A DNA stretch of 64,000 bases from Arcobacter sp. (lineage in GTDB: Bacteria > Campylobacterota > Campylobacteria > Campylobacterales > Arcobacteraceae). A program made the position numbers and the translations under genes. How positions within the stretch are numbered: position 1 is the first letter of the stretch; each line of letters begins with the position of its first letter. Where the stretch lies: the NCBI GenBank assembly GCA_002869535.1, contig PKUK01000001.1:496001-560000 (forward strand), in the 5' to 3' direction. Shown one piece after another: positions 16,351-21,428 of this stretch. The notes beneath the pieces are model-generated. The model made no database searches. It was not told the DNA's origin and saw nothing but the letters and a program-made list of their open reading frames with translations.

Positions 16351-16983
16351 TTATTGCTCATTACAAATTTCAATACCCATTTTTAAAAATCCTGTAAAAG
16401 CAGCATTGTCAAAGGATAGTGGTCCTGAAACTTTTGATTTAATAGTATCTAATACTTTTGAATACTCTTTATAAAACTCATAAGATGGTCTTGGTTTATA
16501 TATCAAGTCTGGTATCTCCAAATACTTTATGATATTTTTTGTAGTTGTGGGTTTAATAAAATACTCTGTTTGCCTATTTATACTATAAGGTACAAGAGTA
16601 ACCAAAGTCCACTTTGCCATACCAAACTCAGCTAAAAACTCCACAAGCCCTTCAAAACCATTTTTCTTATTTCCATGCAACAGTTCATAAAGTTCGATAC
16701 TCAGCATATCTTTTTCATATGAAGTCAAAGCCTTAATCACATCACGAAGTTTAACCTTATCAAAAAGTGATACCATAACTGATTTTTGGATAGTTTTAAA
16801 ATATGCCTCTGCTATAAAATGAGGGTCTGAAAAATTCTCTTTTTGAAAAGCATCTTTTGCATAGGCTTCTAGCTTTTCAGGGTTGAACTTTTTTATAAGT
16901 TTAATTAACTTCTCATCCTCAAAGCCCTTTGGATAGGCATCAAAAAATTCAGACTCTACATCTTTTAGTTTTTCTGTGTTCAT
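16351..16983 (-). CDS. Conserved hypothetical protein
   Basis: Intact 210-aa ORF, tightly packed downstream of the HNH gene. Confidence 0.6.
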   Translation of the reverse strand: MNTEKLKDVESEFFDAYPKGFEDEKLIKLIKKFNPEKLEAYAKDAFQKENFSDPHFIAEAYFKTIQKSVMVSLFDKVKLRDVIKALTSYEKDMLSIELYELLHGNKKNGFEGLVEFLAEFGMAKWTLVTLVPYSINRQTEYFIKPTTTKNIIKYLEIPDLIYKPRPSYEFYKEYSKVLDTIKSKVSGPLSFDNAAFTGFLKMGIEICNEQ

Positions 16984-17024: not shown

Positions 17025-17777
17025 CTAAACCGCAATTTTAAATTGGTTCTTCACTATAAACTTATAAAATCCATATTTCTTTATATTAGGTTTATCCTTA
17101 ACATAACCTGCTAATATCTTTTTATTTTCTTCTGTTTTTTGAGTTAAACACTTCTTAGATAATCTAGCAAAATCTAAAAGCCTTTCATAATGTTCTTCCA
17201 ATAAATCTATTCTACAACTACTCATTTTCTCATTATTATCACAATTACCTATTCCATAAAATTCTATTGTTTTTTCTGCTTTTGCTTTTTTATATTCATC
17301 TAAATCTTTTCTTGGATTAAGAATTAAAATTGACTTACCCTTTGTAGTATTAATAAACTGCAATTCAAAAAGTTCGTAAATATCATCATGTAAAGGATTA
17401 GCAATAAGTGGCTTTTCATTTGTCAACTCAGACTTATTTTTAGCCCGTATTCTATTTTGACCATATAATGGAAAATCAGTTTTCTTATAGGTACTATTAC
17501 AAACAGGGCACATTAACATGTAATTTTGATAACAACACTCCAAAAATGGGTATAAAGTTTTATCTTTTGGTCGATAATGGTCAATATGAGAATATTCATC
17601 TATTAATTTTTCACAAATAGGACATTTAGAATTAGTAAATTCTAAAAAAGCTTTTTTAAAAACTTTCCATTTACATTCACTCACTCCAGTGCAATCTCCA
17701 TCAAGTTCCTTATGGTTAAACTCTGTTAGAGCTTCTTGGAAAAGTTTATCTACATAAATCTCTCTCATATCTATCAT
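17025..17777 (-). CDS. HNH endonuclease, PtuB-like (TIGR02646-type)
   Basis: CPICEKLIDEYSHIDHYRPKDKTLYPFLECCYQNYMLMCPVCNSTYKKTDFP; ATGA overlap with upstream ATPase. Confidence 0.8.
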   Translation of the reverse strand: MIDMREIYVDKLFQEALTEFNHKELDGDCTGVSECKWKVFKKAFLEFTNSKCPICEKLIDEYSHIDHYRPKDKTLYPFLECCYQNYMLMCPVCNSTYKKTDFPLYGQNRIRAKNKSELTNEKPLIANPLHDDIYELFELQFINTTKGKSILILNPRKDLDEYKKAKAEKTIEFYGIGNCDNNEKMSSCRIDLLEEHYERLLDFARLSKKCLTQKTEENKKILAGYVKDKPNIKKYGFYKFIVKNQFKIAV

Positions 17778-20308
17778 AAAGATTCCTCAAAATCCTTTAA
17801 TAAATCATCTATTTCATCTTCACTCATCTCATCTAATTTTTCAAATTCTATATCTTTATGTTCTTTTATAAATTTTAAGAACTGAAAGTATCCTCTATTG
17901 TAAATAAAGTTTGTTGCAACTGTTTCACTTAATTTATCTTCTAAACTTTTTAGTTCATCCTCTTGTTCATCTGTTAATTCATCTAAAAGCTTTATCTTAG
18001 TAAATTTTGATAGGTTTTTTTGCATCTCTTCACCTACTAAAGAATTTACTCCAAAATATTTTAAAAGTACCATTCCAACATCAATATTTTTAGTACCTGA
18101 ACCTTTTTGAGCTTCTAGCTTTCCATCTATTTCTTTAATAATAGTTATTTCATCTTCGTTTCTATCTAATATTGACATAGGATTATGGGTAGTTAAAATA
18201 AATTGAATTTTCGGAAAAGTATCTAGTAGTTTAGATACAATATTTGATTGCCATTTTGGATGAAGATGTCTATCAAACTCATCTATTAAGATAACACCTT
18301 CTATTGTTTCAGGAGTTTTTCCTATCCCTAAAATTCTTACTAAAATATCTGTTATAAGTAAGATATTATTTCTATATCCTTCACTTAAGTTTTCTAATTT
18401 AAAAATATTTTTATTATTGTGTTTAAAAAAATACTTTCCTTTATCATATACTAGCTCATATTCATCTTGTAAATTATTTATAGTATTTATAAATATTTTT
18501 TTTACCTCTTTTGCTCTTCGTGTATCAATTCTTTCAAGTTCATTTAAAATACTTTTTGGATTATGAAACTCATCTACATAATCTTTAAAAATAGAGTTTG
18601 TAAAATTATTTGTAATCTTTTTTTCTAAAATATCTGAAACCAAATCATTTACTTCAAGCTTGTATTTTGTAAAGATATTTGAACCATATGATAAAACAAA
18701 AGGAGAAAGTATAATATTATCTATTGTTCTTTCTTGAGATGTTATTTTAACACTCTTTTTATATTCATCTATCGTTAAATCAATATTAGCACTATCTTTA
18801 CTTTTTGTTATGTAGTTTGGATACTTTTCATTTGATTCTCCACTATAATTCTCTTCTAAAAGTCCTAAAGTAAGTGCTTGTAATAAAGATGTTTTTCCTG
18901 AAGAATTTTCCCCTATTATAATATTTATATTTGGTGAAAACTCTATTTCAAAATCTTTTAAAAGTTTGAAGTTTTCAATTTTTGCTTTTTTAACAAAAGG
19001 TGCAATACTAAAGCTTGAATCAATAAAGAATTTTTTATACGAAATAGACTTTAAATTATTATAAAAAAGTTTTGTACTTTTATTTATATTAGAAATCCTA
19101 TTCCCTAGTTTCAAAGAAATTCTTAGTGCTTTTTCAAAGTACTCTCTTTCTTTTACTAACTCATTTACCCTATAATAATAAAAACCTAAATTATTGTAAG
19201 ACTCTGCAGTATCAGCATGATTTTCTCCTAATACTTCCAATCTTATCTTTAATGCTTTATCATAGTACTCTTTTGATTTCTCAAAATCATTTATCCTATC
19301 ATAATAATCTCCTAAGCTATTATAAGACTCTGCAGTATCTGCATGATTCTCTCCTAATACTTCCAATCTTATTTTTTGTGCTTTATCATAGTACTCTTTT
19401 GATTTCTCAAAATCATTTATCCTATCATAATAAACGCCTAAGCAATTATAAGAGTCTGCCGTATCTGCGTGATTTTCTCCTAATACTTCCAATCTTATCT
19501 TTAATGCTTTATCTAAGTACTCTTTTGATTTCTCAAAATCATTTATATTATCATAATAATCTCCTAAGCTATTATAAGACTCTGCCGTATCAGCATGATT
19601 CTCTCCTAATACTTCCAATCTTATCTTTAATGCTTTATCTAAGTACTCTTTTGATTTTTCAAAATCTTTTATATTATCATAATAATCTCCTAAGCTATTA
19701 TAAGACTCTGCCGTATCAGCATGATTCTCTCCTAATACTTCCAATCTTATTTTTAGTGCTTTTTCGTCGTACTCTTTTGATTTTTCAAAATCATTTATCC
19801 TATCATAATAAATACCTAAATTATGGTAAGAGTCTGCCGTATCTGCATGATTCTCTCCTAATACTTCCAATCTTATTTTTAGTGCTTTTTCGTAGTACTC
19901 TTTTGATTTTTCTAAATCATTATAAAAATAGAGTATTAAATTAGAGTAATTATAATATAAATGAGAGGCTTCTTTTGTACTAAAGTCTAAATCTTTTCTT
20001 TCCAATGTTTTTTTAGCTATATCCAAATATTTTTTCTTCGAAAGATAATCTCTTTTTTGTTTATCAATTTTTAAAATATTAGACAACTCTAAAATAATAT
20101 CATCACTTTTTAGATTTTCTAAATAAAAATCTTCTATTTTAGAATTAAGAGAGCTATCAATATCAAAAACTAATTCTAAATAATCATAAAAAGACTCTTT
20201 ATCTTTTTTACTTCGTGATTCTTCCAGTTTTTGTTTTATTTTTGTTGTAAATTTATCTTGTAATAAATCAAAATTGTCCCATATTATTTGTCTTAGATTA
20301 TCTTCCAT
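17774..20308 (-). CDS. TPR-repeat AAA ATPase, PtuA-like (Septu-like defence candidate)
   Basis: N-terminal tandem 42-aa TPRs; C-terminal Walker A IIGENSSGKTSLL, Walker B GVILIDEFDRHLHPKWQ, TTHNPMSIL. Confidence 0.82.
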   Translation of the reverse strand: MEDNLRQIIWDNFDLLQDKFTTKIKQKLEESRSKKDKESFYDYLELVFDIDSSLNSKIEDFYLENLKSDDIILELSNILKIDKQKRDYLSKKKYLDIAKKTLERKDLDFSTKEASHLYYNYSNLILYFYNDLEKSKEYYEKALKIRLEVLGENHADTADSYHNLGIYYDRINDFEKSKEYDEKALKIRLEVLGENHADTAESYNSLGDYYDNIKDFEKSKEYLDKALKIRLEVLGENHADTAESYNSLGDYYDNINDFEKSKEYLDKALKIRLEVLGENHADTADSYNCLGVYYDRINDFEKSKEYYDKAQKIRLEVLGENHADTAESYNSLGDYYDRINDFEKSKEYYDKALKIRLEVLGENHADTAESYNNLGFYYYRVNELVKEREYFEKALRISLKLGNRISNINKSTKLFYNNLKSISYKKFFIDSSFSIAPFVKKAKIENFKLLKDFEIEFSPNINIIIGENSSGKTSLLQALTLGLLEENYSGESNEKYPNYITKSKDSANIDLTIDEYKKSVKITSQERTIDNIILSPFVLSYGSNIFTKYKLEVNDLVSDILEKKITNNFTNSIFKDYVDEFHNPKSILNELERIDTRRAKEVKKIFINTINNLQDEYELVYDKGKYFFKHNNKNIFKLENLSEGYRNNILLITDILVRILGIGKTPETIEGVILIDEFDRHLHPKWQSNIVSKLLDTFPKIQFILTTHNPMSILDRNEDEITIIKEIDGKLEAQKGSGTKNIDVGMVLLKYFGVNSLVGEEMQKNLSKFTKIKLLDELTDEQEDELKSLEDKLSETVATNFIYNRGYFQFLKFIKEHKDIEFEKLDEMSEDEIDDLLKDFEESL
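19150..19920 (-). repeat. Intragenic 126-bp tandem repeats encoding 42-aa TPR units (6 copies)
   Basis: Core 'atacttccaatctta' recurs at 19231, 19357, 19483, 19609, 19735, 19861, i.e. exactly 126 bp apart. Confidence 0.95.
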
Positions 20309-20327: not shown

Positions 20328-21428
20328 CTAAAAGTTCTTTATCAAGTCTTCATAAACAGCAGTTAATCCCTCTACTTCTTTTACTGTAGTTCTCTCACCA
20401 ATACTATGAATAGTGTCGTTTATAACACCAAACTCTATGGCTTCTATACCAAATGCACCAAAATATCTGGCATCACTTGTTCCTCCATGGGTTGATTGTT
20501 TTGTAGGTACTCCTAAAACTTTTTGGATAGAGTTTTCCATTGCTTTCACCACTTTTGATTCTTTATTTGTCACAAAGGGAAAAGAGCCTTGTGTTGTTTT
20601 AAAGTCGTAGCTTAAGCCTTTTAACTTTTCATGGATAAACTCTTCTACACTTTCTCTTGTCGTATTTGTTGAGTTTCTTACATTGAACATAAGTTTTAGT
20701 TCATTTGGTGTTACGTTTGTAACTTCTGTACCACCTCTTATATCTGTAATTACCATCTTAGATGGAGCAAAGTATTCATCTCCATTATCTAAATTATACC
20801 CTGCAATTTTTGGTAATATCTCTGCAAAATTATGTACGGGATTGATACACTTTTCAGGGTATGCAGCATGTCCTTGCTTACCTTTTATAGTGATATATCC
20901 ATTTATACTTCCACGTCGGCCTACTTTTATGGCATCACCAAAAACTTCTTCACAAGTAGGTTCTGCAACTACTGCGTATTGAGGTATAAAGTCTATCTCT
21001 TTTAAGTGTTCAAGCATTTTGATAGTTCCATAAGTTCCTTCACCCTCTTCATCACTTGTCATAAGAATAGAGAGTGTTCCATCAAAGTTTTGAGCGTGTT
21101 TACAAGCATATAAGAAAGCAGCATCACCACTTTTCATATCTTGTGCACCACGTGCACTTATAACTCCATTTACTATTTCAGCAGCAAAAGGGTCTACTTC
21201 CCAACCTTGCCCCACAGGTACTACATCTATATGTCCAGCAAAGCACAGATGCTGTTTTTTGTCATTAAACTTTTTATAAAAAAATCTGTTTTTTGTGCCT
21301 TCCATATCAACTTTTATGCAACGCCACTCTTTTCCTAAATACTCTTCTATAAAATCAAAAGCTCCATCATCATCAGGTGTTATTGATTTAAATCTTAATA
21401 ATTTTTGAAATAATTCTATAATAGTCAT
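20328..21428 (-). CDS. dapE: Succinyl-diaminopimelate desuccinylase
   Basis: CFAGHIDVVPVGQGWEVDPF, ARGAQDMKSGDAAFLYA, STHGGTSDARYF. Confidence 0.95.
   Translation of the reverse strand: MTIIELFQKLLRFKSITPDDDGAFDFIEEYLGKEWRCIKVDMEGTKNRFFYKKFNDKKQHLCFAGHIDVVPVGQGWEVDPFAAEIVNGVISARGAQDMKSGDAAFLYACKHAQNFDGTLSILMTSDEEGEGTYGTIKMLEHLKEIDFIPQYAVVAEPTCEEVFGDAIKVGRRGSINGYITIKGKQGHAAYPEKCINPVHNFAEILPKIAGYNLDNGDEYFAPSKMVITDIRGGTEVTNVTPNELKLMFNVRNSTNTTRESVEEFIHEKLKGLSYDFKTTQGSFPFVTNKESKVVKAMENSIQKVLGVPTKQSTHGGTSDARYFGAFGIEAIEFGVINDTIHSIGERTTVKEVEGLTAVYEDLIKNF

Follow-up and report, generated by a model that had tools for sequence, protein, structure and literature searches.

The gene pair at positions 17,025–20,308 of the window (the whole 64,000-nucleotide stretch of Arcobacter DNA analyzed here) is, judging from sequence comparisons, a divergent PtuA/PtuB relative in which the executioner part is ordinary and the N-terminal module fused to PtuA is unusual. 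Based on homology and structural models, we consider it probable that the pair forms a Septu-like PtuAB abortive-infection module with the infection sensor built into PtuA, the TPR superhelix being that sensor. The locus and its flanks comprise the following features, all on the minus strand.

17774..20308, minus: PtuA-like protein, 844 aa, with an N-terminal domain (N-domain), a TPR array and an ABC/OLD-type ATPase (ORF, PADLOC, Pfam, Foldseek)
19994..20308, minus: N-terminal helical domain, aa 1–105 (alignment with G408, G303, and G464; AlphaFold)
19103..19963, minus: TPR array, aa ~116–402, of 42-aa kinesin-light-chain-type repeats (Pfam, TRF, Foldseek)
17777..19003, minus: PtuA-type ATPase domain, aa 436–844, with Walker A/B, signature and H-loop (PADLOC, Pfam, PDB search)
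17025..17777, minus: PtuB-like HNH endonuclease, 250 aa (PADLOC, TIGR02646, AlphaFold/Foldseek)
20328..21428, minus: dapE, upstream flank and anchor of a variable slot (NCBIfam TIGR01246, 414.7 bits; 85–88% DNA identity in congeners)
16351..16983, minus: 210-aa gene of undefined family, the other conserved flank (present in 64 of 104 family genomes; 86–88% DNA identity in congeners)

A PtuA/PtuB-like gene pair

Both ORFs are intact, and the start codon of ptuB overlaps the end of ptuA by ATGA (TTTATGATAG), exactly as had been predicted originally. At the local composition, a reading frame of 844 codons would stay open by chance with a probability of about 3e-29. The GC content of ptuA (24.9%) and ptuB (27.0%) is lower than that of dapE (34.5%) and the 210-aa gene (31.0%).

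The PADLOC and AlphaFold comparisons proposed with the original prediction both tie the two proteins to PtuA and PtuB. The 844-aa protein matches the PADLOC PtuA model PDLC00292 (3.6e-53, the best PtuA model), which we read as probably describing a fused PtuB-PtuA, because its first third matches the window PtuB. Pfam identifies TPR_12, AAA_21, and AAA_15 in this protein, that is, TPRs and an ABC-type ATPase only, with no NB-ARC or NACHT domain. The ATPase domain contains Walker A (GENSSGKT, 466–473), the signature (LSEGY, 641–645), Walker B (VILIDEFD, 672–679), and the H-loop (TTHNP, 706–710). A PDB sequence search retrieved PtuA (8ee4, 5e-19) and several retron PtuA proteins, and for the TPR part KLC1 and a bacterial kinesin-light-chain-like protein. 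The top Foldseek matches of the AlphaFold model are retron Ec78 PtuA (9nnb) and E. coli Septu PtuA (8eea/8sux; E ~1e-11), followed by the KLC1 TPR structure 7ai4. The model has pLDDT 75 and pTM 0.48, with low values in the linker (402–435) and the N-domain, so that it does not fix the relative placement of domains. About 75 aa of the N-domain are conserved in the alignment with G408, G303, and G464; the domain is modeled as all-helical, mostly at low confidence, and its residues 1–105 match no Pfam family.

The 250-aa protein matches the PADLOC PtuB model PDLC00339 (4e-19), and its AlphaFold model (pLDDT 86.5) has retron PtuB chains as all five top Foldseek matches (9nnb/9n6b, E ~5e-5, probability 1.00). 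The HNH and zinc residues C52, C55, H67, N85, C90, C93, and N94 (CxxC...DH...N...CxxCN) are nearly invariant in 14 homologs. The catalytic HNH residues of PtuB and the Walker residues of PtuA are intact.

A reading of the pair as plain Septu is not supported. PtuA scores 126.5 bits with NF041760, the equivalog model for retron Ec78 PtuA (cutoff 500), and PtuB scores 28.6 bits with TIGR02646 (1.3e-6; cutoff 52.15). Since neither NCBIfam cutoff is reached, the proteins are better regarded as divergent relatives than as equivalogs, and their nearest kin, which have fused N-terminal modules, make up a clade of their own. The stand-alone ATPase architecture canonical for Septu PtuA is not that of the window protein, with its 844 aa and TPR array.

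Genomic setting and the dapE-adjacent slot

The end of dapE is separated from ptuA by 19 nt on the same strand, and the 210-aa gene lies 41 nt downstream of ptuB. The Pfam reverse transcriptase family RVT_1 has 0 matches in the entire genome that contains the window (control profiles matched), and no Rfam family around the locus exceeds its gathering score. As the 19-nt gap leaves no space for a retron ncRNA upstream and the genome has no reverse transcriptase (RT), the retron reading is ruled out. The prediction of a Septu-like TPR-fused PtuA with PtuB and without an RT is therefore borne out by profiles, folds, and synteny. A SAM-V riboswitch candidate at 18664–18708, within the coding region, scores 29.1 bits (gathering score 41, E 0.25) and was taken as a chance match.

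The pair is accessory: it is absent from both congeners examined and hence is not a core gene pair; conservation as a core pair, which would have spoken against the original prediction, is thus not observed. In both congeners the flanks are conserved (85–88% DNA identity) with 7.5–9 kb of other genes between them. No precise empty site was found, since both flanks enclose other genes in the relatives examined. In G001, dapE is followed first by genes (L024:7223-11684) for an ORF6N protein, which matches the PADLOC candidate PDC-S05 (5.4e-68), and for a 1273-aa protein whose match to an nSTAND NTPase is weak (3.9e-7, below the Pfam cutoff). In G032, from another genus, the slot (L139:8094-12179) contains a PDC-S49 KAP NTPase (1.1e-176), an LmuB-like ATPase, and a type II restriction enzyme (1.2e-26), and the slot genes of G002 are not defense-like. 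Because other defense-type genes occupy the slot in G001 and G032, it behaves as a defense hotspot; with the window, these three genomes are the basis for a possible chromosomal hotspot of the family adjacent to dapE.

Two mobile origins were considered and rejected. No PtuB relative occurs in viral contigs, and matches to the ATPase there and in phage records are weak and partial. Among plasmid records, none reaches 80% coverage of the TPR-PtuA query, the listed matches being TPR-only or ATPase-only.

Exchange of N-terminal modules and repeat variation

Of 397 genomes of the phylum, 3 contain a close relative of the ATPase in addition to the window genome, and later searches added further ones; overall, the sampling amounted to 1,985 genome searches in Campylobacterota and Pseudomonadota, with draws that overlapped. 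Intact PtuB adjoins the ATPase in all five clade loci that can be read unbroken downstream (the window, G273, G408, G303, and G464). The ATPase identity to the window is 60% in G273, 56% (partial) in G303, 55% in G408, 54% in G464, 50% in G1013, 39.8% in G1009, and 30–37% in the GTPase-type proteins described below. In the tree, the window, G273, G408, and G464 group at 92/93; once G1013, G303, and G1009 are included, support for the deep forks is weak and the position of G1009, the LRR form, is unsure. Weak inside the clade, the tree does not give the order of TPR gain and loss.

N-terminal to this ATPase, the relatives bear different modules. G408 repeats the window arrangement (N-domain, TPR, ATPase), but its ptuA is interrupted by a single stop and a single frame break. 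G273 has the N-domain and ~9 TPRs on one contig and the ATPase with PtuB on another, the contigs overlapping by 61 identical bp (L061:7422-7482, L094:7321-7381) with an nrtD-like fragment, which is either an insertion or an assembly artifact. G464 encodes an intact 476-aa protein with the N-domain and the ATPase, lacking TPRs, and keeps PtuB. G303 combines an N-domain-like start, a winged-helix-like (WH-like) stretch, TPRs, and the ATPase, with two frame breaks in ptuA; with the NB-ARC end, WH, and TPRs of G1013, its N-terminal half gives a 36% alignment of 238 aa, so that part of its N-domain may derive from a decayed NB-ARC. G1013 (L156:3007-6357) has an intact 1116-aa protein with NB-ARC (1.4e-8), WH, TPR (TPR_10, 1.1e-52), and the PtuA ATPase (8.4e-48), followed by a broken PtuB frame and an NB-ARC-TPR paralog without the ATPase (L156:7533-9509). 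In G1009 (L157:2776-4785), LRRs (1.4e-19) precede a PtuA ATPase (3.3e-39), inside which the contig ends. Thus, a single ATPase clade bears the N-domain alone, N-domain and TPR, WH-like and TPR, or NB-ARC, WH and TPR, and a distant member bears LRRs. The rarity of the clade speaks against the Septu-like sensor reading, and the lesions in draft genomes (ptuA of G408 and G303, ptuB of G1013), whether decay or assembly error, cloud these particular loci. These module swaps are the most telling new evidence, and go beyond the original prediction.

Several neighboring arrangements were also observed. Upstream of the NB-ARC-PtuA gene on L156 are genes for an AbiLi/PDC-M38A-like ATPase (1432-2460) and a small PDC-M38B-like protein. 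A sister group of ~940–990-aa proteins from Campylobacterales, Methylococcaceae, and Nitrosomonas combines a PtuA/AriA-like ATPase with a GTPase-like P-loop domain (KIYLLGSTGAGKTSI...) at the N-terminus, and a PtuB follows; possibly, this combination is an undescribed Septu-like system. Its loci are:

L020:2229-5063, GTPase-like-PtuA
L021:834-3803, GTPase-like-PtuA
L026:3030-6008, GTPase-like-PtuA
L027:3072-6008, GTPase-like-PtuA
L030:3024-6008, GTPase-like-PtuA
L072:4820-7801, GTPase-like-PtuA
L073:4765-7719, GTPase-like-PtuA
L107:335-3268, GTPase-like-PtuA

In a Pseudomonadota genome (L106:1851-4915), an HNH-ATPase fusion of 717 aa precedes another HNH protein, which is encoded separately. 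The layout of a Priestia plasmid locus (L096) is similar in its two HNH units and has an RT close by; the 704-aa Priestia ATPase was rejected as a TPR fusion, its extension matching PtuB and not TPR.

Within the window array, Pfam recognizes TPR_12 (3.5e-63) and TPR_10 (1.3e-59), the latter in seven stretches (about seven repeats), and TRF reports a 126-bp unit (42 aa) in 6.3 copies with 90% matches (19123–19921). Among copies 1–5, only 9 of the 42 positions vary (2, 5, 6, 9, 13, 15, 24, 25, and 28). In TPRs generally, positions 2, 5, 9, 12, and 13 count among those that vary most and face the ligand, and the TPRs of HOP touch their peptide via positions 2, 5, 6, 9, 12, and 13 (PMC1261162). 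In the window array, variation is enriched at positions 2, 5, 9, 12, and 13 (p = 0.005); permutation gives p = 0.003 for the window, 0.014 for G408, and 0.044 for G273, and a combined value of 8e-5 from these few copies, which assumes three independent arrays, orthologous arrays being not quite independent. Fungal NLRs likewise have 42-aa KLC-like TPRs with high internal identity, concave variation, and repeat-number polymorphism (PMC4986451), and the window copies resemble them in being homogenized, yet variable at ligand-contact positions. Concave variation is a general trait of TPR ligand sites and does not point to a phage product as the ligand.

The same observations bear on whether the TPRs of a Septu-like defense pair are instead a scaffold for oligomerization or PtuB docking, the ATPase core sensing a trigger such as nucleotide depletion or damaged DNA, as in plain Septu. 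We regard this as fairly unlikely. In its favor, TPR arrays often mediate assembly, canonical Septu works without a repeat module, and G464 keeps PtuB beside the same N-domain and ATPase without TPRs. The intact G464 pair shows that the TPRs are dispensable for the persistence of the pair, which counts against the TPR-sensor reading. However, both the replacement of the TPRs by NB-ARC/TPR or LRR modules in relatives and the variation at ligand-contact positions fit recognition better than a fixed scaffold. The original prediction had left the array as either a sensing or an oligomerization module; the NB-ARC/TPR and LRR swaps strengthen the sensing side, which we still infer from sequence.

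Two sister species of one genus, G273 and G408, allow a comparison of alleles. Their upstream genes are 93.7–98.9% identical in DNA (98.9% for the neighboring gene), the intergenic region 99.3%, the N-domain 92.2%, and the 3′ flank 95.8%, and the amino acid identity is 53.7% in the ATPase and 49.4% in PtuB. In these two draft assemblies, with G273 ptuA split over two contigs, one of them with the nrtD-like fragment, the pattern appears to be that of allele replacement at a single locus. This divergence of about 50% inside flanks of 94–99% identity, the patchy presence, the variable slot with other defense-type genes, and the strong PtuA/PtuB homology make it very improbable that the genes are a cellular ATPase-nuclease pair for DNA/RNA maintenance or regulation, as might be supposed from their position among housekeeping genes and apparent co-transcription with dapE across the 19-nt gap.

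Proposed mechanism and relation to known systems

Published PtuAB systems need both the ATPase and the HNH activities for defense, and the EcB88 Septu and the PtuAB of retron-Eco7 lead to cleavage or loss of tRNA-Tyr (PMC13096335, PMC11555353); the Septu PtuAB of E. coli ATCC 25922 has been reported to target DNA, as stated in PMC11555353. In retron-Eco7, RT/msDNA silences PtuAB (PMC11555353). By analogy, this restraining or sensing role would here be assigned most simply, and with reasonable probability, to the fused N-terminal module. In the model that we favor, with the sensor inside PtuA, the ATPase core would assemble with PtuB and keep the HNH nuclease off. The concave groove of the TPR superhelix would take up either a phage product or a host protein that the phage has disturbed. 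This would alter the ATPase assembly in a presumably ATP-dependent gating step and free PtuB, whose cleavage of an essential nucleic acid (tRNA or DNA) would bring the infected cell to a halt.

The silencing in retron-Eco7 also suggests an indirect trigger of a guard or toxin-antitoxin kind, in which the TPRs hold a host partner that silences PtuAB, and PtuAB is released when phage attack this partner. As the window pair has no linked gene of this kind, a host protein could fill the silencing role; the loci examined, however, have no conserved third gene beside the pair and yielded no candidate partner, and we think this explanation improbable.

On the sensor-in-PtuA model, the immune-receptor-like modules at the PtuA N-terminus of relatives suggest a route by which such systems gain a virus-sensing part. 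Tentatively, and with slightly less than even confidence, we propose that PtuAB is a transferable executioner onto which NLR-type modules (TPR, LRR, NB-ARC-WH-TPR) have been grafted, forming a "receptor-fused Septu" group in Campylobacterota whose recognition part in PtuA evolves, like fungal NLRs, through homogenization of repeats, variation in the groove, and exchange of alleles. Should the N-terminus of PtuA serve as a socket for receptors, the TPR, LRR, and NB-ARC-TPR fusions could each be used as bait for the phage trigger, domain swaps could directly probe whether sensing and killing are separable, and Septu would be linked to NLR-type receptors of bacteria and fungi. In the open-access literature we found no paper joining Septu, PtuA and TPR, or PtuA and NACHT, and no stated trigger for plain Septu.

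Type I Septu shares with the window pair the adjacent ATPase and HNH genes, the PtuA and PtuB folds, and the lack of an RT, and the PADLOC PtuA/PtuB models match best; it differs in having an ATPase of ~400–550 aa, in contrast to the 844-aa protein with N-domain and TPRs, and both window proteins score below the respective cutoffs (NCBIfam equivalog and TIGR02646). The effectors of type I-A retrons (Ec78/Eco7, Ec83/Eco4; "Septu type II" in PADLOC) have the same folds and gene order, whereas the window genome has neither an RT nor upstream space for an ncRNA.

Bacterial STAND/NLR-type receptors (NB-ARC/NACHT with TPR) are similar in their KLC-type array of 42-aa TPRs as the presumed receptor arm, and G1013 carries NB-ARC, WH, and TPR on the same PtuA; the window protein, in contrast, has no NB-ARC/NACHT, and its effector is a separate HNH protein that would be driven by the C-terminal ABC-type ATPase. 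Fungal NLRs with highly conserved TPRs (PMC4986451) share the repeat type, the internal identity, the concave variation, and the differing repeat number, but belong to another kingdom and have a NOD domain that the window protein lacks, the comparison here covering three arrays. Finally, fused PtuB-PtuA proteins of the PDLC00292 type and GTPase-like-PtuA fusions also have an N-terminal addition on PtuA followed by a ptuB gene, the addition being an HNH or a GTPase-like P-loop domain instead of repeats.
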